From a virus, in the IMG/VR virus record IMGVR_UViG_3300032085_001429, positions 1 through 25,878 of that record: 25,878 nt of DNA. One strand, given 5' to 3'. A model generated the notes under the pieces. That model saw only the letters and a program-made list of their open reading frames with translations. It did no database searches and had not been told where the DNA came from. A program made the translations under genes and the position numbers. Of the stretch, positions 1 to 18,997 are shown piece after piece (positions within the stretch are counted from its first letter, which is position 1; every line of letters begins with the position of its first letter).

Positions 1-1692
1 TTTGAAAGTATTTGATAAGTCTTTAATTGATAATGGGTCTCTAGTAAAATCAGATTTATGTGTTCCCCATGTATGTGATTCTGGTGGCCGGCCTGTTCCT
101 CCAACATACTCTTGTTGCTGGCCAGGTAATAATTCTCCTTTGTTAGCGACATGCATTGAAGCAATATCATGCGGCGTGCCAAAAGACATATTTGTTTTCT
201 TAGGATCATTGCCTTCAGACTTGATCTGCTCTTTTCGGAAATCATTTTTGAAATCTTCAATGACTTGATCTTGCTCATATTTCCATTCAGTATCAGACAT
301 TTTGAAGATGTTTTCATAGATCCATTGAGTTGAAAACAGGCCTGAATCTTTCATATCAGTTGCCAATGACAATTTAGCTGCTAATGTCTCTACCTGCTGT
401 CTTTCATATACTAATGATGGATTTGTTAGTGATAATTCAAAATCAACTAAATCATCGTCTGTAAATCCTTGTGAATACAAATGTATGATGGCAATCTTTG
501 TGAGTTCAGATATGAATACACGTTGTATACGTTCTATAGTTCGTGCAAAACGAACATCTTCTGCGGCTAATGTGGCTTTACCTTCAACACCTTCGTCATA
601 TCCTAAAAATGCTTTTGGTACCTTTAATGCTGCGAACATTTTATTTTTGAGATAATCAATGTCTTCAATCTGACCGTCATTGCCTAGGCCTGGCAGAGCC
701 TCTATACTTGTTCCGGTTTGATCTCCACGTACTGGTAAGAAATAATCCTCAATGGCATTCTGCATGTTGAATTTGAGATTATAATCTCCCGTCTTCTCAT
801 CAATATAAGGAACCTTCTTCATTTTATTAATGATAGACTGAATATGATTATCAACTTCATTTGGTGGAATATTGCCGACATCTATTTTGAAAACTCTACG
901 TTCTGGTGCTCTCATTATTCTATGAATCAACATAGCATCTTCCATCAGTGTTAACTGCTTAAATATTTTTCTTGCAGGCTCAATCATCGATTTACCATAT
1001 GGCAAAAAGTTAGTATCTGACATCAATCTGAAATGAGCAATTTGCCATGATTCAAAATGACTAAATGCTCCCTGTATTGTTGAACCATGATTGTAAGTAT
1101 TCTGACCTTCTAACACAAATCTGTATGCAAATGGGTTGTCAGGATCAAAACCCTCCTCTCTACGAACTTCATAAGCAGATAATGGTGATACATTCACAAT
1201 GCCAATCTCTTCTTCAATATCTAAATGCAGATAAAAATCACCATATTTACATGCATTTCTGATCCATGGCCATAAATTATATTCCACATTCATGATATCA
1301 AAGAACAGATTATACAAAATCTTTTGAATCTCTGGATTGGCAGTTTTTATAGTTAACACATCTCCATCTGCATCTTTAGTTGTGGATTCGTCTGAATATA
1401 TGTCTAATGCTGATGCAATGATTGGGTCCATGTCCATAGCTTCATAATCTGTAAACATTTCAATTTTGGAAACATGATAATTCGCGTTCTGATTATATGT
1501 AGATGTAGCAAATCCAGGCAAGCCTCTATGCAAGCCAGAGAATCTGTCTACATATCGTTTATTGGATAAGTTACCATGAGACTGTAAACGATTTGTATCA
1601 ACTGCTTTGAGTCTGTTCTTGGAAATTCTTCTTACTACCACATTGGTAGAAAATAGACGATTAAGTCTTCCACGTAATGATTTATCAGCCAT
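1..1692 (-). CDS. 20: Portal protein, T4 gp20-like (partial, C-terminus beyond window)
   Basis: Portal vertex protein of the head: in T4-like phages a dodecamer that starts prohead assembly, docks the terminase and passes DNA. The frame runs open from ATG at 1690-1692 to base 1, giving 564 residues; the stop lies outside. Recognisable gp20-family blocks are an N-terminal basic region (MADKSLRGRLNRL), a block near residues 315-335 with EDYFLPVRGDQTG followed by IEALPGLGN, and VPKAFLGYDEG followed by KATLAAEDVRFARTIERIQR, the helical clip/stem part typical of the family. The ATG is preceded by the motif ATATTTATA but by no clear Shine-Dalgarno sequence. It follows the large terminase by 24 bases. 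In T4 the sheath and tube genes 18 and 19 lie between genes 17 and 20; here they do not. Assignment is by recognised family motifs, not by a search. Confidence 0.93.
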   Translation of the reverse strand, partial: MADKSLRGRLNRLFSTNVVVRRISKNRLKAVDTNRLQSHGNLSNKRYVDRFSGLHRGLPGFATSTYNQNANYHVSKIEMFTDYEAMDMDPIIASALDIYSDESTTKDADGDVLTIKTANPEIQKILYNLFFDIMNVEYNLWPWIRNACKYGDFYLHLDIEEEIGIVNVSPLSAYEVRREEGFDPDNPFAYRFVLEGQNTYNHGSTIQGAFSHFESWQIAHFRLMSDTNFLPYGKSMIEPARKIFKQLTLMEDAMLIHRIMRAPERRVFKIDVGNIPPNEVDNHIQSIINKMKKVPYIDEKTGDYNLKFNMQNAIEDYFLPVRGDQTGTSIEALPGLGNDGQIEDIDYLKNKMFAALKVPKAFLGYDEGVEGKATLAAEDVRFARTIERIQRVFISELTKIAIIHLYSQGFTDDDLVDFELSLTNPSLVYERQQVETLAAKLSLATDMKDSGLFSTQWIYENIFKMSDTEWKYEQDQVIEDFKNDFRKEQIKSEGNDPKKTNMSFGTPHDIASMHVANKGELLPGQQQEYVGGTGRPPESHTWGTHKSDFTRDPLSIKDLSNTFK

Positions 1693-1716: not shown

Positions 1717-3294
1717 TTAAATTAACCAAGTTAGATCGTTATTATCCTTATCTCCAGATTCCCATTTCCAACTTTTCTCCACATCTTTTGTCGACGTATA
1801 TACTCCAGATGATTTGCCAAAGTGATTAAGTGATTTTCTTGAAAGGTCAATACCTTGTTGATATAAACGCATTGCAGTGTCTCTCACCCATAATGCAATG
1901 CCAAATGCCATCACCAAATCATCATTATAACCTCTCTGTGCCTCTGCTCTGGAACCGTTCCATATGAATACCAGAAGTTCATCTATCAATCTTCTACTAT
2001 GAACCACCGGAGATTTCTCTCTGAAATATGTTTCCAATTTTGAAATTAACAATGGTCTGGTTTTTGATGTGGTGGAAAATCCAGGTACCTTCTGAGCTTT
2101 ATTTTTCAGATCATATCCTTTTGCCAAATGCACATCTTCATCTATATATGCATCTTGTTTATATGAATAATACAGATTAGGATAATTTTTGTCAATGGCA
2201 ACCTGTATGACTGCCCACCCAATGTTAGCATTCTCAATTACCAGTAGTGCATTGTTCCATTCGGTGGCAACTGCTACCAACATGTTACCATATTCTGTAG
2301 TACCGATCTTACCTTTATATTCTGCAACTTGTTTAACATTATCAATATCAAGAACATGAAATGCTGAATAGTCTGCTCCATCGCCTCGTGCAACGTCCGC
2401 AACTACCACATAGTTAGTAGAATAATTAGGATAGTCCCAAACCCAGTAGTTACCATCAAATCCTCGTTTTTCAACTGGATCTTTTATGTATGTCTGATCA
2501 TACCACTGAAGTATAGGACCATCTATTACTGTATGACCAGAAGATATGAAATCACAGTCACATTCCTGTGCTGCCATTTTTTCTCCCAGGAGAGATGTTT
2601 GTTGACGGCGCCATTCTTCATTACGTTCTGGATGTACTGTCCAATGCAGCCTAATTGGATTGAACTCCCCAGCTGCCTCAGCGTCTACCCATGTTTTGTG
2701 AAACCAGTTACCAGTACCATTAGGAGTAGACAATGCTATACATCCTCCTCCCGTTGACAACGTTTGTTGAGCCGATGCCCATATTTCACCAATATTTCGT
2801 ATGAATGCTGCCTCATCTATAACTAACAATGATAAGGCTTCCGATCTACCTGCAGTGCCTGTAGATGAAACTGCTTTGACCTGAGAACCGTTTCGTAATC
2901 TCAGTGAAAGTTTGTTATCTTCATCTGTAGTACCCTTCATCCAGGTTGGTAAATTTTCATGCATGACTCTGATCTTTGTCACTAAGTTCTTTGCCACTTC
3001 CTGAGTAGTTGCAATGACTAACACATTGAAGTCTGATTTGAACAACATGTTCCAAAGAATGAATCCTGCTGACAGAGTGGATATACCTAATTGTCTGGAT
3101 TTCAATATGATGTTATAGCGATTGTCTTTGAAATCGTTGAGAGTATCTTGCTGAAATGGGTATAAATTGAAATACATCTTACCTTTGGTAGGATGCTGAA
3201 TCACACAATACTTACGCATGAAATGAACCGGATCTGTAGCCGATTTCTTGAATTCATCTCGTATTATTTGTTTAAGTGATTTCTTTTCTGACAT
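1717..3294 (-). CDS. terL: Terminase large subunit (packaging ATPase-nuclease), T4 gp17-like
   Basis: Motor of DNA packaging: the N-terminal ATPase powers translocation through the portal and the C-terminal RNase H-like nuclease cuts the concatemer. The protein has 525 residues (T4 gp17 has 610). ATPase motifs are a deviant Walker A, KSRQLGIST (residues 65-73), Walker B LLVIDEA (156-162, catalytic D160/E161) and the coupling motif STPNGTGNW (189-197). Nuclease motifs are VVVADVARG (D300), LVIENAN (E354) and NDDLVMAF (D458/D459), giving the acidic triad. The position normally held by lysine in the P-loop (GKT in T4) is Ile71; the upstream Lys65 matches the KxRQxGxS form seen in other terminases. 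The start ATG (3292-3294) follows the previous stop by 14 bases, with AGGA about 12 bases upstream. The portal gene comes next. No small terminase is recognised beside it. Confidence 0.95.
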   Translation of the reverse strand: MSEKKSLKQIIRDEFKKSATDPVHFMRKYCVIQHPTKGKMYFNLYPFQQDTLNDFKDNRYNIILKSRQLGISTLSAGFILWNMLFKSDFNVLVIATTQEVAKNLVTKIRVMHENLPTWMKGTTDEDNKLSLRLRNGSQVKAVSSTGTAGRSEALSLLVIDEAAFIRNIGEIWASAQQTLSTGGGCIALSTPNGTGNWFHKTWVDAEAAGEFNPIRLHWTVHPERNEEWRRQQTSLLGEKMAAQECDCDFISSGHTVIDGPILQWYDQTYIKDPVEKRGFDGNYWVWDYPNYSTNYVVVADVARGDGADYSAFHVLDIDNVKQVAEYKGKIGTTEYGNMLVAVATEWNNALLVIENANIGWAVIQVAIDKNYPNLYYSYKQDAYIDEDVHLAKGYDLKNKAQKVPGFSTTSKTRPLLISKLETYFREKSPVVHSRRLIDELLVFIWNGSRAEAQRGYNDDLVMAFGIALWVRDTAMRLYQQGIDLSRKSLNHFGKSSGVYTSTKDVEKSWKWESGDKDNNDLTWLI

Positions 3295-3308: not shown

Positions 3309-3890
3309 CTAAATTAGATCGGCTCCGGCATCTTCAACAGTTTGTATCACTTTCTGTATGTATTCAGCTATTTCGCCTGATTTAATTGCGTTTAATGCTG
3401 TTTTAATACCTACCATTTTCAATTTACCTTTTGCCAAATATTGTAAAGCTGATGAACCTCCTTGTAATAACAATGCTGCTACAATTAATGTATGTATCAG
3501 TTCAGCAACTTTATGTGCTTTCTTTTTGTCTTTGACGCCGGCTTTCATAATAGCCCTTTCAATGGCACCGACGATGATATGATGATATTTTTCACCAATG
3601 GTAACTAATTTTTCGCCAGATAAAAATTTCAATCCAGGTATTTTACCTAACAAGTTTATGAACTTGCCAACTAATTTCACAATCATACCTAATGATAAAG
3701 CTACGCCTGCTAATGTCAATGCACCCAGAGCCTCATTTTGTAGATCATCACCCTCTAAATCAACTGATTTGAAATCTTGGGCTAGATCGCCTAATGTATC
3801 TTCAACATCAGCTTCTGCAGTCTCAATATCATCCTCTGATAATAATTGTTCGTTGATTATTTCATTAACTATTGTCTTGAGTTTTTTCAT
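3309..3890 (-). CDS. Small hydrophobic protein with capsid-targeting-like leader (193 aa)
   Basis: Family not recognised. Residues 1-19 form a basic-to-amphipathic helix (MKKLKTIVNEIINEQLLSE) ending in L17-S18-E19, the L/I-x-E pattern used by the T4 prohead protease. An acidic stretch follows (about 20-53, rich in D and E), then two strongly hydrophobic segments (about 54-83, rich in A, L, G and V, and about 131-152), each long enough to span or insert in a membrane, separated by a Lys-rich loop (115-127). I infer a head-packaged protein that could act on a membrane at DNA entry. A holin-like or plain structural role is also possible. The ATG lies inside the end of the preceding gene (26-base overlap, different frame), so translation is probably coupled. 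The terminase follows. Confidence 0.75.
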   Translation of the reverse strand: MKKLKTIVNEIINEQLLSEDDIETAEADVEDTLGDLAQDFKSVDLEGDDLQNEALGALTLAGVALSLGMIVKLVGKFINLLGKIPGLKFLSGEKLVTIGEKYHHIIVGAIERAIMKAGVKDKKKAHKVAELIHTLIVAALLLQGGSSALQYLAKGKLKMVGIKTALNAIKSGEIAEYIQKVIQTVEDAGADLI

Positions 3891-4518
3891 TAGTAGGTTT
3901 TGCTAAACTTTTTCTAATATTTTCTTTCAACTCATTATAATCATTTTGCATGCGCTCAACAAACTGTGAAATATCAATATCATCTGATCTACCATCTGCA
4001 TTATGCCAATAAGCTTCTTTAACCTGATTTTTTAAAATATCAACTTCTATATCACAGTCTCTGAACCAGGCCTCAGCATTGTCAGACATTATCTTTCTTT
4101 GATATTCATTCCAAGCTTCTTCACCTTGTTCTTTTATTTTACGCTCTTCTTTGAGGATACATGAAAAACATTTTTTACGACTAAAATAAAATTTTAAATT
4201 CAAACGTTTTTCATCACCTTTCATGAACTCACCACATTCAGGACAATTATCCGGAGCTTTTAAAATGTCCTTGATAGATGACAACAATGAATTTGCTGAT
4301 TCCTTGACACGATAACCTTCCTTCTGAGTCCATTTATGTTTATGGCCTTTGACATCAGTCTCATACCATACTTTAGGCCGGCCATCCTCAAATCTTTCAA
4401 CTACATCCATATCCTTTTCAGGACCTTTGGAAAATGTAAATGTTTTTCTTGTTTGAGTTTTGTGCTTACCAGCCAACAGATCTCGAACTGCTTTAACGTT
4501 TTGTAACTTTTTGGACAT
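3865..4518 (-). CDS. Conserved-type hypothetical protein with C4 zinc ribbon (217 aa)
   Basis: Function unknown. The clearest feature is a four-cysteine zinc ribbon: CPECG (C92, C95) and CFSC (C117, C120), with a basic spacer (KRLNLKFYFSRKK) suggesting nucleic-acid contact. The N-terminal 70 residues are basic and rich in K, R and T. Residues 121-205 look mostly helical, with alternating charged stretches. It has no L-x-E leader, unlike its two neighbours. Its ATG follows the previous stop by one base (TAA-T-ATG), so the two are probably co-translated; its own end overlaps the next gene by 26 bases. Position beside the terminase makes a packaging or head role plausible, and a divergent small terminase cannot be excluded, but no gp16 motif was recognised. 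Confidence 0.75.
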   Translation of the reverse strand: MSKKLQNVKAVRDLLAGKHKTQTRKTFTFSKGPEKDMDVVERFEDGRPKVWYETDVKGHKHKWTQKEGYRVKESANSLLSSIKDILKAPDNCPECGEFMKGDEKRLNLKFYFSRKKCFSCILKEERKIKEQGEEAWNEYQRKIMSDNAEAWFRDCDIEVDILKNQVKEAYWHNADGRSDDIDISQFVERMQNDYNELKENIRKSLAKPTNEKTQDNS

Positions 4519-4519
4519 A

Positions 4520-5086
4520 TTATTTGAATTCTGATCTGAACTTCATACGAAGTCTGTTTTTAGCAGCTTGATCTAATGGTAAAGAATCTAACATAGCAAA
4601 AACAAAATCAACCTGTTGTGTCGCAGGCTTACCTTGTAATGCTCTAGTTAACATTCTAAATGCCTGAGTCTTTTCCATTCTTTCTTTCTTACCAGCTAAT
4701 GCGCCTCTCAAACCATCTTGTTCATTCACATTTTCCGTAACAGCGTCATCTACTGGTGGCTCAACAATAGCAGAACGTACAGATTTGGTTTGTAACTCTC
4801 TTTTTAATTTTTCAACTGCCTGAGTATCATCTCCAATAAGTTTCTGAACGATCATTAATACTGCTGCAGCCTTTTGTGAAGGCGATCCGACCTGCAATGA
4901 TTTTTGTAATGCTCTCATATACTGAGTATCTAATAATCGATCAATGCGACCAGTAGTAGTCGATGTAGCACGACCTAAATCTTGCTCATTTGTATCTTCT
5001 TTTTTCTTACTGTAATCGCCCTCTGAAAGAGTTGATTTAATAATACGTCTTATTTCTTGACGTAAGATTTTTTCTTTTTGATTCAT
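4520..5086 (-). CDS. Small helical protein with capsid-targeting-like leader and two internal repeats (188 aa)
   Basis: Family not recognised. I chose ATG 5084-5086 over an in-frame ATG seven codons upstream (5105-5107) because GGAG lies eight bases before it, whereas the upstream ATG has no ribosome site and abuts the ATATTTATA motif. The protein starts with a basic amphipathic helix (MNQKEKILRQEIRRIIKS) ending in L20-S21-E22, as expected of a T4-type capsid-targeting peptide. A polar linker (about 25-50) follows. Two related helical segments, about residues 54-99 and 140-185, share the pattern TQxxRxLxxxLQ-x-G-x-P...Q, then hydrophobic V/M positions, then L, D and basic residues, indicating an internal duplication. 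Residues 100-139 are a variable linker. The gene forms one cluster with the 217- and 193-residue genes and the terminase. Likely an internal head protein. Confidence 0.78.
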   Translation of the reverse strand: MNQKEKILRQEIRRIIKSTLSEGDYSKKKEDTNEQDLGRATSTTTGRIDRLLDTQYMRALQKSLQVGSPSQKAAAVLMIVQKLIGDDTQAVEKLKRELQTKSVRSAIVEPPVDDAVTENVNEQDGLRGALAGKKERMEKTQAFRMLTRALQGKPATQQVDFVFAMLDSLPLDQAAKNRLRMKFRSEFK

Positions 5087-5106
5087 TTCGAATGCTCCGT
5101 TTTTCA

Positions 5107-5114
5107 TATAAATA
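5107..5114 (-). promoter_or_regulatory. ATATTTATA-type junction motif before 188-aa gene
   Basis: Plus strand TATAAATA; sense strand CATATTTATATG. It lies in the 33-base gap between the 780- and 188-residue genes, 20 bases before the chosen start, followed by GAAAAACGGAG. Same motif as at the other four junctions. Confidence 0.5.
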
Positions 5115-5119
5115 TGTAG

Positions 5120-7462
5120 TTATCTGGAATACCTTGTCAGTCCTAATAATTGATTTACAGGGGCAAATAATCCAGTTAGTTTATAAGTTTTACCTTTGTA
5201 TACAAACACAATTCCTTCAGTAGGAACCAATTTTTCAAATCCGCCTGCCGTTTCAATTCGTTTCAATTGAGTTTTCATTTTGTCTAATGTTGCTAGATCA
5301 TCACTATCCTTCAGCTCTCGCACTGTATCTGCAATTTGTTTACGTAGATCTTTCACCGTGTCTGATGGATTGGCTGACAAAAATTCTGATGCATTACTTA
5401 ACACTTCTGCGCCAAGTTCCAGAAAGATGTCTTCAAATTTCACTATGTTGGATTTGTTCAATTTAGCAATATCCTGTTTATCAATCAGCAGAACCTGATC
5501 AAGAGTATCAGGATTGATAATATTTTTTGCATTTAGTCTATATGACTTATCACCATATGCCCATCTACGCAATAAACCTTCACGTTCTTCCGTAGATAAA
5601 TCCGGCAATCGATTGTCAATGTAATTTTCCCACCAACGCTGATGGTACATCACAACTTCATCTGAATCTTTCAATCCATATTCTTTCTGAAGCTGATTTA
5701 TTTTATTAATATAGTAAGTTTCTTTTTCATCAAAATCTGGAAGTTTTGATAATGTGACAACCTTTGGTGGTATAATTTTGAAATGTTCCTGCGTATCAGC
5801 ATTTACATCAGATATCATTTTCTGTAACAAACCACCATACTCTGGTAAAGATGCTGTTTTAGTGGCTGATTCCAAATCAAATTCATTGAGACCGTGAAAC
5901 TGTAAATAGGCTTTTGGTCCATATGTTATCACATTTGCTGTGGCTGGATATATGATTTCCAGATTCACAAAGCGACGTCCATTCTGAAACATTTCATCTC
6001 GCTGTTCAGGTGATAATGCAAGAATTGCTTTTTCCAGATCTTCCATAGCAAATGCAAATGCATCTGATATATCTCCTCTACCGCCAAATTTCATTTTCAC
6101 AGCATCTATGTCCATCGGCTGCCTGATGGTGGCTTTATTACGAGCTGCTCCTACTTTACCATCTTTGAAAGTGACATTTAGATTCTGACCATCCGTTTTT
6201 TCTGTGACATCTGATTCTCTGTTCAACTCTCCTTGTAATGACATACGAACCATATCCTTCATTTCTGCAAATGTAAGATCTCTATCATCAAATGGATGAT
6301 TCATATGGCCAGAAGCCCCTCCTTCAGTTATTAATGTTCTGAATTTGCCAGCCCACCATTCTTTGGTAAGTGATTCTGTCAGTGATGCCTCGGCTTTAGT
6401 CATTGGTTCATTCTCTGTGGAATCGATTGCTTCTTCGGCTCCTAGAAAGTTAAGAAATTTATAACCTACTCGTTCTGCTACATCTGTTATATAGTTTTGC
6501 CAACGCTTATATCCAGGAGTACCTCTAAGCTCTTTGGTGTAATTGGTACCAGATCCTATAGCCCCTACTTCGCCTGTAGGAAAATATGACACAGTATCAA
6601 CTGGACCGTTAGGCCACATATCATTATGATCTTCCAATTCTTTGTCAGTGTTCAATACATAATTAAGAACTGAAAATCCTAATCGCTCAGCCATGGCAGC
6701 AGTTTTCTTTTGGTATGTTTTCTGATTACCATAGAAATATCTTGGGCCATCATCAACATCTGCTTTGCTTCCATTAGCCTGAGATATCTCTGATATAATT
6801 TTTGTATCAGTAATGAAATTAATTATTTGCTCTGCAACTAACACACTGAATTTATCTCTGAGTAGATTGAATATCTTGTCATCATAAAAGCCCATCACAG
6901 TTTCAAACTCTTCCGGCGATGCTGTTGCCAATACCTGTCTCAGTACTGTGCCAGACATGTCTCCATATCCTGGTACTCTGATTGACACATGAGGTGCCAC
7001 ATACAGATAACCATGTTTCGTGTAAGGTTGGAGATTACCTTTGTTATCATCATAATACTGAAAAAATGTAGGTTCGCCGTTTCGTTTTGTGCCTACTCTA
7101 AAGCGAGGATCTTCGTCCATGTCCTTCTTACCGACAGCAAATATCACTGCAGTTGTTTCAGGATTATAATTTCCAAGTATTTCACTAGCTTGATATGGAT
7201 TACGGACTTGTACCACATTGGTGATACCGTGAGCATTGATCACTTGTTCTTTTTCAGAGAAGTCCAAAGGTGACTTAGGCAGTTTCACTTTGTCAGAAGT
7301 GGCAACATAGGTATTGCTTTTTCCGAATCTATTGGCAAGTTTCTTGTAAACTTCAGCATGATGTTTGCCCATGGGTTGAAACCTACCCGGATATATCACA
7401 ACTATGTCACGTATATCAGCTTCGTTCAGAATTGCAGAAGCTATGCTTTTTCCTAAGTTCAT
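5120..7462 (-). CDS. Bifunctional nucleotidyltransferase / ligase-like fusion with capsid-targeting-like leader (780 aa)
   Basis: Residues 1-14 (MNLGKSIASAILNE) are a short helix ending in L12-N13-E14, a possible prohead-protease site. Residues 19-210 look like an HxGH-type nucleotidyltransferase (cytidylyltransferase/NMN-adenylyltransferase superfamily): IYPGRFQPMGKHH (24-35) is the nucleotide-binding start and SGTVLRQ (170-176) matches the ISSTxxR-type motif. Residues about 230-345 are a middle region of unknown fold. Residues 380-780 carry the covalent nucleotidyltransferase motifs of ATP-dependent DNA/RNA ligases in the right order: motif I EKTDGQN (Lys422 as nucleotide-accepting residue), Arg441, motif III FVNLEI (Glu502), motif IV TEGIVFVY (Glu749) and motif V YKLTG (Lys761). 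It thus appears to hold two different nucleotide-transfer sites. Substrate unknown. The ATG lies only three bases after the ATATTTATA motif, with no Shine-Dalgarno sequence; no better in-frame start was found. Confidence 0.85.
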   Translation of the reverse strand: MNLGKSIASAILNEADIRDIVVIYPGRFQPMGKHHAEVYKKLANRFGKSNTYVATSDKVKLPKSPLDFSEKEQVINAHGITNVVQVRNPYQASEILGNYNPETTAVIFAVGKKDMDEDPRFRVGTKRNGEPTFFQYYDDNKGNLQPYTKHGYLYVAPHVSIRVPGYGDMSGTVLRQVLATASPEEFETVMGFYDDKIFNLLRDKFSVLVAEQIINFITDTKIISEISQANGSKADVDDGPRYFYGNQKTYQKKTAAMAERLGFSVLNYVLNTDKELEDHNDMWPNGPVDTVSYFPTGEVGAIGSGTNYTKELRGTPGYKRWQNYITDVAERVGYKFLNFLGAEEAIDSTENEPMTKAEASLTESLTKEWWAGKFRTLITEGGASGHMNHPFDDRDLTFAEMKDMVRMSLQGELNRESDVTEKTDGQNLNVTFKDGKVGAARNKATIRQPMDIDAVKMKFGGRGDISDAFAFAMEDLEKAILALSPEQRDEMFQNGRRFVNLEIIYPATANVITYGPKAYLQFHGLNEFDLESATKTASLPEYGGLLQKMISDVNADTQEHFKIIPPKVVTLSKLPDFDEKETYYINKINQLQKEYGLKDSDEVVMYHQRWWENYIDNRLPDLSTEEREGLLRRWAYGDKSYRLNAKNIINPDTLDQVLLIDKQDIAKLNKSNIVKFEDIFLELGAEVLSNASEFLSANPSDTVKDLRKQIADTVRELKDSDDLATLDKMKTQLKRIETAGGFEKLVPTEGIVFVYKGKTYKLTGLFAPVNQLLGLTRYSR

Positions 7463-7465
7463 ATC

Positions 7466-7473
7466 TATAAATA
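7466..7473 (-). promoter_or_regulatory. ATATTTATA-type junction motif before nucleotidyltransferase-ligase gene
   Basis: Plus strand TATAAATA; sense strand TTATATTTATAGAT followed at once by ATG. Only three bases separate motif and start, which argues against a simple -10 box with a normal leader at this copy and leaves open an RNA-level role or a leaderless message. Confidence 0.45.
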
Positions 7474-10139: not shown

Positions 10140-13100
10140 TCATAAATATTGAATTTTTGAATAACCGCCTGTCTTTTTTATTTCAATAAGTTTGTCTACA
10201 ATGTCTCGCATTGCATCGATATGTGATATACACATTATGAAACCAAATTGAGTTTTCAGATAATCAAATAACATGTACATGGAGTTTAGATTGTCAGAAT
10301 CCAGAACTCCGAATCCTTCATCAATTGCCAAGAAATTCGGTCTAGGTAAATTTGAAACATTGATGAGAGATGTTCTGATTGCCAATGATGAAACAAATTT
10401 CTCCATACCAGATGTGAGTTCCAAAGGCCAATAGTTATCTTCATCATATACTATAAAGGCATTAATGTTCTTACCATCAGTTTGTAACAATATAGTGAAA
10501 TCCACAATCTGTGTCAATATGTTGTTTATTTCAGCTTCAATCTTCGGCAGAGCCTTTGATATCAGATAATATGGGACACCATCACGTTTCACAGCCTTCA
10601 TATAATATTCATAACCTTGATATTGCTTTTCCAGATCTTTCAAGCGTTGAATATCTGCTTTTGTGTCAGCAATTTTCTGATTGGCAACGCTTAGCTTACC
10701 GGAAACATCAATGAGTTGCTGATCAATGTCGTTTATTTCACGTTCAATGAATACCAATTCATTCTTATGTTCATTTATATCATTGTTAAGCTTTCGATTA
10801 TGCTCTATGTATTCAATCTGTTGCAATGATTTGTTTAGACTTTCATTCAGTGAATTCATTTCACTGTTCAAATCATAGTTCTGCCGTTCACATTGATCTA
10901 ATGAAATATTTACATTGTAAACTTGATCTCGAATTTTTCTTTTCTTGTCTTCCAGATTATCATACTCAATTAATTTATTCTTGACATTTTCAATATCAAT
11001 CTTCTTCAGATTATCTTGTACAAGTTTAACTTGATTGTTAATTATACCTAATCTATTCCGAAGTTCAGGTAATTTTTCTGCAATGGTCTTAGTTTCATGT
11101 AACCATGGATTTGCCATACAGTATTCACAATCAGGATTCCATTTGTGATCATCTAATTTAGATGTCATACGCTGTGCATGTTCAATTTCCTTTTTCAATG
11201 ACATCTGATTATATTCCATATCAGATAATTCAATTCTTCGCTGATCATGTAAATTGATCATTTGTTGCAAACCTGATTTATCAATTTTGGACAACTGAGA
11301 ATTAATCTCACTAAGTTTTTCATTTGCCATGTCCATGAAACGTGAATGTTCGATTATCTGTTTGTCATTGCTTTCCAGATCTAAATCAATTGATCTAATC
11401 TTTTCTTTGATATCTTCTGGATTTTCTAGATCATGGATCTCATATAATTGCTGTGACAATGTTATGATTATCTCATTAAGATTGCGTCGCATTTCATTAT
11501 GATCTGCTTTGTCTTTTGATATTTTATCAGAAATCTTTTGATATGTTTCACTATCCAATTCTGCGTCTGACAAATCCTTTGACAGATCTTTCTTTTTGTA
11601 TTCGCGAATCAGTGCCGCCGTTTCCTTGATATCCTCATGACCAATCAGATATTGTTGTTCAAAAATTTCAATGTCAAGAAACTGTGACAAAAGATCTTTA
11701 CGTTCTCTCTGTGTTTTGTCAATGAAACCTGTATTGTTGTTTTGTAATGACAGAGCAGTTAGAACAAAATCTTCATATGTACCGAGATAGTCTCTGATAT
11801 TTTTATTTGTACTGTCTCGCTGATCACCATTCAAATTTTCTTCATTACCATTTACGTCATAACGATAAAAATTAACTGTGACTTTGACATGATCATTGCT
11901 TTGTTTTTTACCAGAACGTTCTACACAGTAAGTATGTTTACCTAATTCAAATTCAAACTTGCTTTGAAAGTTACTACATTTGTTATTAAGCACATGTGCT
12001 GCCTTTTTAGTTCGACTACATTTATCAAAACAACAAAATGCCAATGCATCTAACAAAGTAGATTTACCAGAAGCGTTAGGAGCAAATAGTCCATATGATC
12101 CTTGCAGCGATCCAAAATCTATAACATTGTCAGTACCATAACTGAACATGTTTGAAAATTCAAATCGTTTCGGTACCCAGGTAGTGTTTCTGGCTTGTTT
12201 GTCTAACACAAGTTTACTATGAACAGTTCTGTTAATATAACGAACAATGTCCATCATTTTATCATCTACACCATGTTCAGCTGTCAGATATTCTGATATC
12301 ACATTGTTTTGCCATTCCACATCTCTGACACTACCGAAATTAATTTTATTGGCAGTATTTGTGGTATTGATCTCATTAACACGTTGTATGGTGATATCTT
12401 GTACTTTACATTTGCTGCGTATATGTGATGTAACAGCTTTGATATCTGCGGCATCAGTATTCTTTACTTTCAGTCTCAGTCTAGGCCTTAAAGGTATATT
12501 TGAAATATCTGTTTTCAGTTCACCATCTTCTACATATGCTGTGTAATAACCATAATCATTTTTTATCTCAACAAATTCAGAAGTCCTTGTTTTGACATCC
12601 CAAACCAATATACCATGCACCAGACCTTCGCCATGGTTCTGTTGAATTAATGAACCTGCATATGCAATTGTTTTATCATCATCAAGATATTGCGTTTTAT
12701 GAATATCTCCTAACAATGTCATGTCATGGCCATCAAATATGGTTGTTGTGACATGATCATTTTGCAGTACAAATCCAGCATCTGTACTAGCATTGTTGAC
12801 TGCGCCATGGTGTAATGCAATCTTTGTTTCAGCAGTTAGTTTGTCAGCTTTTATGAAATCAACCGGTTTGTCAAACACGGACATAACGTTAAAGTCCACA
12901 TCGGCCAATCTATATATACCTGTGTCTTTAAGATAGTGTAAATCAGTGTGTTTGATAGCCTTAACGATAGGATAAAGAGCGTCTAAGCGATCTGAATTAT
13001 TTAGGTTGCAATCGTGGTTACCGGTGATCACAATTGTAGGAGATATATCTGCCAAAGATCTGAAAAAATCAGACACCATGTCAATAAGTTCTGGCGACAT

Positions 13101-13292
13101 ATCTGTTTTGGCATGTACAATATCTCCTGCTACATATATCACAGAATTAGGTGTAGCATTCTTTTTGATATAAGAATACAATCGTTTGAATACTATCTTA
13201 TATTCTTTATGACGTTTCACATTTCGAATATGAACATCTGCAATGTGAAAAATCTTGTCAATCTGTTTTATGTCTGTTTTTATAACGTACAT
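10140..13292 (-). CDS. 47-46: Fused recombination nuclease, gp47 (SbcD/Mre11) + gp46 (SbcC/Rad50)
   Basis: One 1050-residue protein holding both subunits of the end-processing exonuclease that T4 encodes as separate genes 47 and 46; it would resect DNA ends for recombination-dependent replication and host DNA breakdown. Residues 12-240 are a metallophosphoesterase: DVH (19-21), GD (56-57), GNHD (91-94), LHHG (160-163) and GDIH (195-198). After a linker (about 340-375) comes the ATPase: Walker A APNASGKST (404-412), a long coiled coil (about 550-895) broken at its apex by a zinc hook CEYC (C722, C725), signature LTSGMEKF (959-966), Walker B FLAIDE (987-992), D-loop GVLD and switch histidine SHID (1023-1026). 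The start overlaps the primase by 13 bases; GGAAG lies ten bases upstream. No stop or frameshift separates the halves. Expressed with the primase, probably early. Confidence 0.95.
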   Translation of the reverse strand: MYVIKTDIKQIDKIFHIADVHIRNVKRHKEYKIVFKRLYSYIKKNATPNSVIYVAGDIVHAKTDMSPELIDMVSDFFRSLADISPTIVITGNHDCNLNNSDRLDALYPIVKAIKHTDLHYLKDTGIYRLADVDFNVMSVFDKPVDFIKADKLTAETKIALHHGAVNNASTDAGFVLQNDHVTTTIFDGHDMTLLGDIHKTQYLDDDKTIAYAGSLIQQNHGEGLVHGILVWDVKTRTSEFVEIKNDYGYYTAYVEDGELKTDISNIPLRPRLRLKVKNTDAADIKAVTSHIRSKCKVQDITIQRVNEINTTNTANKINFGSVRDVEWQNNVISEYLTAEHGVDDKMMDIVRYINRTVHSKLVLDKQARNTTWVPKRFEFSNMFSYGTDNVIDFGSLQGSYGLFAPNASGKSTLLDALAFCCFDKCSRTKKAAHVLNNKCSNFQSKFEFELGKHTYCVERSGKKQSNDHVKVTVNFYRYDVNGNEENLNGDQRDSTNKNIRDYLGTYEDFVLTALSLQNNNTGFIDKTQRERKDLLSQFLDIEIFEQQYLIGHEDIKETAALIREYKKKDLSKDLSDAELDSETYQKISDKISKDKADHNEMRRNLNEIIITLSQQLYEIHDLENPEDIKEKIRSIDLDLESNDKQIIEHSRFMDMANEKLSEINSQLSKIDKSGLQQMINLHDQRRIELSDMEYNQMSLKKEIEHAQRMTSKLDDHKWNPDCEYCMANPWLHETKTIAEKLPELRNRLGIINNQVKLVQDNLKKIDIENVKNKLIEYDNLEDKKRKIRDQVYNVNISLDQCERQNYDLNSEMNSLNESLNKSLQQIEYIEHNRKLNNDINEHKNELVFIEREINDIDQQLIDVSGKLSVANQKIADTKADIQRLKDLEKQYQGYEYYMKAVKRDGVPYYLISKALPKIEAEINNILTQIVDFTILLQTDGKNINAFIVYDEDNYWPLELTSGMEKFVSSLAIRTSLINVSNLPRPNFLAIDEGFGVLDSDNLNSMYMLFDYLKTQFGFIMCISHIDAMRDIVDKLIEIKKTGGYSKIQYL
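10141..10148 (-). promoter_or_regulatory. ATATTTATG-type junction motif before fibre-like gene
   Basis: Plus strand CATAAATA; sense strand CAATATTTATGA. It is the weakest copy of the motif and is embedded in the last codons and stop (TAT TTA TGA) of the fused nuclease, 13 bases before the next ATG. Confidence 0.4.
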
Positions 13293-14358: not shown

Positions 14359-14772
14359 TCAAACTTTCAACCATTCTTTTGGGATTGCTTTTTCCGACCA
14401 TGCAATCCCATGCTTATCACAAAAGTCACCGTAGGTGGTTTTAGAACCTTTCCTGATCTTTGTTTTTGCTGATTGAAAAATGATCCTGATATCTAAATCT
14501 GGATGTTGTTTCTTTATCAACAAATGTTTCTTGCGATCTTCCGTGGTCCATCGACCTTTAGTTTCAATTAATATGCCATTAGGTAATGTGAAATCAACTG
14601 TATAGGTACTCTGCCTCTCAGGTACAATATAATTGATTTTTGTCGTTTCATAAACCTTTTTTGGATCTATTTTCTGTTCAGTGAGTTGATCAGCTATCTT
14701 AACTTCAAATCCCGATCTATAACCTGACTTCAACGCATCGCGTCGTGTCTTACTTCGACTTCTCCAACCCAT
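14359..14772 (-). CDS. T7 endonuclease I-like Holliday-junction resolvase (137 aa)
   Basis: Structure-specific nuclease that cuts four-way junctions and branched DNA, resolving replicating concatemers before packaging. It is clearly like T7 gene 3 (149 residues): RSGFE (E23), TYTVDFTLPNG (D59), IETKGRW (E69, K71) and DRKKHLLIKKQHP, then DIRIIFQSAKTK and YGDFCDKHGI. The residues match T7 E20, D55, E65 and K67, so all catalytic residues are present. T4 itself uses the unrelated endonuclease VII (gp49) for this step. The ATG directly abuts the stop of the 719-residue structural gene (TAAATG), so it is probably translated by coupling and made late, when packaging needs it. A 155-base gap with hairpins and promoters follows. 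Confidence 0.93.
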   Translation of the reverse strand: MGWRSRSKTRRDALKSGYRSGFEVKIADQLTEQKIDPKKVYETTKINYIVPERQSTYTVDFTLPNGILIETKGRWTTEDRKKHLLIKKQHPDLDIRIIFQSAKTKIRKGSKTTYGDFCDKHGIAWSEKAIPKEWLKV

Positions 14773-18989: not shown

Positions 18990-18997
18990 TATAAATA
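18990..18997 (-). promoter_or_regulatory. ATATTTATA-type junction motif before 219-aa gene
   Basis: Plus strand TATAAATA; sense strand GCATATTTATAG, followed by AAAATAAAACAGGAG and the ATG. It lies in the 41-base gap after the 1553-residue gene. Spacing suits a -10-like element with a short leader. Confidence 0.5.

Follow-up and report, generated by a model that had tools for sequence, protein, structure and literature searches.

The 25,878-base IMG/VR record IMGVR_UViG_3300032085_001429 (hereafter the window), a fragment of an uncultured T4 relative that stops within the portal gene, encodes three neighbouring proteins of 780, 188 and 193 residues close to its large terminase. They are believed, with a probability of about 0.72, to be internal head proteins whose capsid-targeting leaders are removed by a gp21-type protease after [LIV]-x-E, the 780-residue protein being in addition a polyprotein. 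The T4 internal proteins IPI-III and Alt carry capsid-targeting sequences that are processed by gp21. Packaging via the leader is likely in the present case and polyprotein processing of the 780-residue protein is well supported by its sequence, while packaging, cleavage and delivery in this particular phage are what we infer from the genes. The features that carry this reading are the following.

5120..7462, minus strand: 780-residue protein with leader, NMNAT-like domain, disordered linker and RNA-ligase-like domain; predicted polyprotein (open reading frame (ORF); AlphaFold2 model)
7421..7462, minus strand: its leader MNLGKSIASAILNE, residues 1-14, predicted cut after E14 (predicted local confidence, pLDDT, below 50 over residues 1-14)
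6839..7408, minus strand: NMNAT/NadD-like nucleotidyltransferase domain, residues 19-208 (Foldseek, profile searches)
6323..6397, minus strand: linker helix ending in the internal site LITE/GG, residues 356-380, predicted cut after E380 (conserved; predicted disordered)
5123..6322, minus strand: RNA-ligase-like domain, residues 381-780 (motifs EKTDG, ARNK, FVNLE, EGIVF and YKLTG)
4520..5086, minus strand: 188-residue protein with the 22-residue leader MNQKEKILRQEIRRIIKSTLSE (...IIKSTLSE), starting at the second Met of a 195-residue ORF
5021..5086, minus strand: leader of the 188-residue protein, predicted cut after E22 (LxE retained in L003-L007, L009 and L028)
3309..3890, minus strand: 193-residue helical, hydrophobic protein with a leader (ORF)
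3834..3890, minus strand: leader of the 193-residue protein with the tandem sites MKKLKTIVNE/IINE/QLLSE, cuts predicted after E10, E14 and E19 (fit to the IPIII template)

The three ORFs and their N-termini, with leaders ending in L-x-E, are all present on the minus strand, as an earlier note made from the sequence alone had described. That note called the leaders basic or amphipathic; they are amphipathic, and basic only in the 188-residue protein, those of the 780- and 193-residue proteins being near neutral. Its choice of start for the 188-residue protein (5086) is right, because the first ATG of the longer ORF (4520-5107, minus strand, 195 residues counted from that ATG) coincides with the end of the candidate late element TATTTATA and the homologues in L006 and L007 start at the next Met. 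Relatives were collected with a terminase profile, which gave at least 594 related virus contigs, 80 of them retrieved for comparison (L numbers denote loci compared); they are not independent samples, and a simple ORF caller set their start sites. Of the 28 complete N-termini in the family of the 780-residue protein, about 20 have the leader ahead of strand beta-1. A protein of the 193-residue family in L024 carries the leader KEQILRAEIRRLIYESLNE, which is nearly identical to KEKILRQEIRRIIKSTLSE on the unrelated 188-residue protein of the window. The leaders appear to be mobile and to be transferred among protein families as modules.

The loose form of the motif is common by chance, with about 12% of random windows matching it and seven matches in total in the 780-residue protein. 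Since the loose motif alone is weak, its sharing among unrelated families was therefore tested. The proteins of the terminase neighbourhoods were grouped into families by their mature parts, taken to begin at residue 31, with one representative for each family, and [LIVMFTY][LIVMF]xE was found at residues 9-24 in 68 of 247 families. Internal windows gave 28.9 ± 4.4 (no more than 45 in any of 200 draws), and shuffled N-termini gave 26.3 ± 4.5. The likeness to capsid-targeting peptides proposed in the earlier note is supported, the motif becoming significant across unrelated families. In whole genomes of relatives the enrichment is weak or none. With genome-wide position-specific scoring the leaders were only about twofold enriched at N-termini, and false positives occurred; an unsupervised motif search gave only a weak [LI]-x-E motif; both were replaced by the family-level tests.

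In the T4 IPIII leader, residues 4 and 7 are involved in targeting and residues 8 and 10 in processing (PMC9026906), and a strict template, M..[LIVFYM]..[LIVFYM][LIVFM].E, was fixed from this published mutagenesis. It is matched by three of 221 T4 proteins (about 85% of the genome searched), namely IPII, IPIII and gp24, all of them gp21 substrates; by four of 221 proteins of the cyanophage S-CREM2, each present in the published virion proteome; and by 12 of 318 families near window-type terminases, as against 0.65 ± 0.8 after shuffling. As IPII and IPIII share the leader and IPIII defined the template, only gp24 and the four S-CREM2 proteins count as independent matches. The first ten residues of the 193-residue protein match the IPIII template exactly, including the key positions 4, 7, 8 and 10, and the leaders of the other two proteins are longer. 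Two further T4 proteins (NC_000866), gp61.1 with the start MKTFKEFIKE/D (L130:8966) and gp2 with the start MAIFQIINE/S (L127:16061), resemble capsid-targeting leaders at their N-termini. Zeta-toxin-like P-loop kinases of relatives (L062:4-765, Pfam 4.9e-7; L069:4605; L074:2970) bear the leader MIKLIDLLNE/G or similar and are candidates for further head cargo.

The S-CREM2 virion offers a link to proteins detected by mass spectrometry, among them a SAM (S-adenosylmethionine) hydrolase, an APH-like kinase, a Cas9-like nuclease and a cytidylyltransferase (ORF154) (PMC10665884). In the genome (OR473000; L132, L131) their N-termini read MKDFDSFLEE for the hydrolase, MKRFDAFLTE for the kinase, ...LRFASFMAE for the Cas9-like protein and MKNFSSFLTE/A for the cytidylyltransferase. 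Four S-CREM2 proteins show the pattern MK..FL.E, and every one of them is on the virion list (Fisher p = 0.005), a value that is optimistic because the pattern was written after some of those sequences were seen. The cytidylyltransferase matches phrog_395 at 2e-59, and in relatives of the 780-residue protein the first domain matches the same cytidyltransferase family at about 1e-13. ORF154 and the 780-residue protein are alike in having homologous NMNAT-like domains behind a leader, ORF154 being the one detected in virions; they differ in that ORF154 has 286 residues and neither a ligase domain nor an internal site. This homology to a virion protein with a leader of its own makes loading into the head, as the earlier note had supposed, probable. 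The accompanying belief that a head-delivered nucleotidyltransferase was undescribed is partly wrong, as virions of T4-like cyanophages are reported to contain cytidylyltransferases; leaders and cleavage are not discussed for the S-CREM2 enzyme in the consulted sections of that paper (PMC10665884).

A protease and a substrate fitting the predicted sites are present in the clade. The gp21-like protease that the earlier note had suggested looking for downstream of the portal is found in long relatives (PF03420, E-values 1e-29 to 1e-36), and in the near relative L014 it lies just past the portal, at 7345. The propeptides of the capsid precursors of the clade end in [LIV]xE/[AS] in 11 of 11 cases. 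A small RpsU/S21-like gene is located between the protease and scaffold genes in L015 (22183-22410) and in about 20 other loci.

Two folded domains are predicted in the 780-residue protein by AlphaFold2, at residues 19-208 and 387-780, with low confidence for residues 1-14 and 328-386. The first was assigned by Foldseek to NadD/PPAT with a probability of about 1.0 but E-values above 0.001, and by hmmsearch to nucleotidyltransferases of the PDB (E-value 1e-6); Pfam CTP_transf_like is weak for the window protein and significant in relatives. Among the NMNAT signatures (GxFxPxHxGH and ISSTxxR), SGTxxR is present, and HxGH has another residue in place of its first His in the sub-family of the window (PMGKHH), the His being kept in other relatives, for example as PFHKGH. 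The second domain carries the covalent-nucleotidyltransferase motifs I (KxDG), III, IV (EGxV) and V with the catalytic Lys, and the K, D, G and E residues are invariant in the alignment. With RNA ligases such as T4 Rnl1 and the archaeal RNA ligase it has in common a weak fold match (Foldseek probability 0.4-0.8, E-value about 0.03) and the motifs KxDG, EG[IV]V and K. Its activity is a predicted one, and it differs from RNA ligases and CCA-adding enzymes in having no significant sequence-family match: Pfam RNA_ligase is reached at an E-value of 0.04 in two of the 30 members of the family, and a profile of the domain compared with solved structures found no ligase. The ligase gene of L074 (3710-8053) is split at motif I (EK/TDGQN) by an intein-like insert, with a homing-endonuclease-like stretch before the junction. 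The AlphaFold2 model of the 193-residue protein is of low confidence, with helices at 60-190 and values mostly under 50 for residues 1-65, and a fold search with this poor model was uninformative.

The 780-residue protein has a second conserved site, E380, between its two enzymes and is probably a polyprotein. At the domain border, [LIVM][LIM]xE directly precedes GG(A)xGHMxHPFD in 39 of 42 distinct relatives, in a linker that is otherwise hypervariable, its entropy of about 3.6 bits dropping to 0.44 at the Glu of the internal site. The border segment is conserved and yet predicted to be disordered, and hence looks like a processing site. The site is frequently doubled (for example, NNLKE/GILNE/GG), and in L061 the protein's own N-terminal leader is repeated there. 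The order of the NMNAT and ligase domains is reversed in L012 (6514-8661) and L101 (6339-8588), which indicates that they are separable modules, and the ligase of L012 begins with MGG, at exactly the predicted cut position. Similar sites border other domains in relatives: in L094 and L100 the ligase is joined to an inserted CCA-adding PolyA_pol domain (3e-30 and 1e-29), in L094 an HD domain is inserted as well, and L093 has an insert with a HEMVH motif that is metalloprotease-like. The immuto protein immuto_183 has a GRYD domain after KKVMAE, and the G002 homologue (96290) is a stand-alone protein with the start MISMKTLITE/GRYD. These multi-domain cases are sequences, not measured cleavages. 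They were inspected individually; an automatic search for leader domains inside proteins gave 42 of 132, a figure left unused, one truncated ORF (L067_16) dominating it. Of the earlier description as one enzyme with two nucleotide-transfer sites, the two domains stand by fold and motifs, and the single effector gives way to a probable polyprotein. Judged against the open-access literature only, the polyprotein reading is new here.

It is also conceivable, and improbable, that the leaders direct packaging as proposed while LITE/GG merely caps the ligase fold as part of its structure and is never cut. The motif does abut the conserved start of the ligase domain, and the evidence for packaging is independent of the internal site. 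Against a cap, the segment is predicted disordered and often doubled, gives way to a start Met in L012, is a copy of the N-terminal leader in L061, and has counterparts flanking other inserted domains.

A still less probable alternative is that the proteins act in assembly, as prohead core or scaffold-like factors, and are cut and mostly lost rather than delivered as effectors. The same sites occur in T4 gp22, gp67 and gp68, which are degraded; the small 188- and 193-residue proteins, encoded in the head-gene region, may belong to the core; and a protein of the Microcystis phage Mel-JY01 clustered with the 193-residue family adjoins the capsid gene. Against this, the catalytic motifs of both enzyme domains in the 780-residue protein are conserved, and the cytidylyltransferase belonging to the family of its N-terminal domain is present in mature S-CREM2 virions (PMC10665884). 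That the N-terminal helices serve membrane or tail docking or complex formation, their likeness to T4 peptides being coincidental in amphipathic acidic-ended helices, is very improbable: the chance frequency of the loose motif speaks for it, and it is disfavoured by the strict-template and family-level enrichments and by the agreement with T4 substrates, with published virion proteins (PMC10665884) and with a matching capsid propeptide and protease.

Besides the chance frequency of the loose motif, several points weigh against head proteins with processed leaders. A conserved leader in homologues, whose lack the earlier note counted as a refutation, is present in most of the 780-type N-termini counted above and absent from a PGGFKP-type sub-clade of that family (e.g. 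L045), which keeps the internal site; the 188-type leader of L024 lacks the Glu. Proteins of the PGGFKP sub-clade would either enter via the internal site or not be packaged. The protease gene would lie beyond the portal and so outside the window, which ends earlier. The predicted ligase is assigned by motifs and weak fold similarity only. A search of the open-access literature found no virion proteomics for close relatives, neither a paper on Mel-JY01 nor virion proteomics of immuto. The S-CREM2 authors allow contaminants among the detected proteins (PMC10665884); the targeting-type peptide shared by the virion enzymes argues against contamination.

With T4 IPI-III and Alt the window proteins share leaders of 10-22 residues ending in hydrophobic-x-E on unrelated mature parts and, in the relatives of the window, a gp21-family protease and a capsid propeptide with a matching site. 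They differ in their mature proteins, which are unrelated to those of T4, the large one being an NMNAT-like and ligase-like polyprotein, and in leaders of 14 and 22 residues; the clade also has many more leader-bearing families than T4. The phiKZ-like giant phages (gp53 and gp54 of SPN3US, and others) have head-packaged ejection proteins with propeptides cut after x-x-E and with redundant sites (PMC5694885, PMC10052503, PMC9026906). Head packaging, protease-removed propeptides and redundant sites, all predicted for the window proteins, are shared with SPN3US, while the long propeptides, the A-x-E specificity and the proteins themselves set SPN3US apart.

All large ORFs of the window are on the minus strand, in the order tail and other structural genes, endonuclease I, primase, a gp47-gp46 fusion, a large structural ORF, the genes of the 780-, 188-, 217- and 193-residue proteins, large terminase and start of the portal. 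The remaining features of the region are as follows.

7466..7473, minus strand: TATTTATA element, candidate late promoter, upstream of the 780-residue protein gene (upstream enrichment)
5107..5114, minus strand: TATTTATA element upstream of the 188-residue protein gene (upstream enrichment; strand-specific)
1709-1716 and 18990-18997, minus strand: further copies of the ATATTTATA element in the window
3865..4518, minus strand: 217-residue zinc-ribbon protein without a leader (no cleavage-like site near the N-terminus; family clustered, 70 distinct members)
1717..3294, minus strand: large terminase of the T4 gp17 type (Pfam Terminase_6N, 1.4e-8)
1..1692, minus strand: portal gene, cut off at the window edge (start sequence matches the portal family of relatives)

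The ATATTTATA element is found in 196 of 1091 upstream regions of the clade, as against 17 in the opposite orientation and 38 in 855 kb of coding sequence, and is a candidate late promoter distinct from the T4 element TATAAATA. By terminase, the closest named phages are Mel-JY01 and the Flavobacterium phage immuto (55% identity). Mel-JY01 has the same gene block, with a 'cytidylyltransferase like protein' close to the terminase, and immuto has near its terminase a 907-residue protein of different make-up with an NMNAT annotation. The absence of a leader from the 217-residue protein agrees with the earlier note; its family (about 70 members in related loci), marked by the N-terminal motif LLAGxHxTQT, lies beside the terminase almost without exception and is perhaps a packaging factor. 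Pfam and PHROGs searches with the single window proteins gave no significant family for the 188-, 193- and 217-residue proteins. Elsewhere in the window, one protein of 1050 residues (10140-13292) appears to combine Mre11-like (gp47) phosphoesterase and Rad50-like (gp46) ATPase parts, as judged by eye from the translation, and a T7-type endonuclease I (14359-14772; PF05367, 5.8e-52) occurs within this T4-like genome.

In the proposed mechanism, the genes of the 780- and 188-residue proteins would be expressed late from the candidate ATATTTATA element preceding them, and the N-terminal peptide would dock each protein in the prohead core. A gp21-type prohead protease would then cut the leader off after [LIV]-x-E, the 188- and 193-residue proteins being cut at their leader sites and the 780-residue protein after E14 and E380, to give an NMNAT-like enzyme of about 366 residues and an RNA-ligase-like enzyme of 400 residues inside the head. 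The freed enzymes would exit with the DNA into the cell, where the NMNAT could refill NAD+; the RNA ligase, joined to a CCA-adding enzyme in some relatives, suggests tRNA repair. It is speculative that, as infection begins, the enzymes restore NAD+ and mend tRNA or other RNA that host defences have damaged. Phage pathways restoring NAD+ against defence are known (e.g. PMC12774641).

On a wider view, which is tentative and rather doubtful, a large uncultivated T4-related clade may pack varied enzymes as capsid-targeted polyproteins that are split in the head, as a time-zero anti-immunity kit in which the NMNAT counters NAD+ depletion and the ligase, with the CCA-adding enzyme of relatives, deals with cleaved tRNA. 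If the head-protein reading is right, the leader could explain why the cytidylyltransferase, SAM hydrolase and Cas9-like protein turn up in the virions of a cyanophage, a finding that its authors could not tell from contamination (PMC10665884), and the T4 internal-protein system would gain polyprotein cargo split by the protease. The leader together with the [LIV]xE rule would then list head-delivered proteins straight from the genomes of uncultured T4-like phages, and would yield a long list of candidates for host takeover and anti-defence among their 'hypotheticals'.

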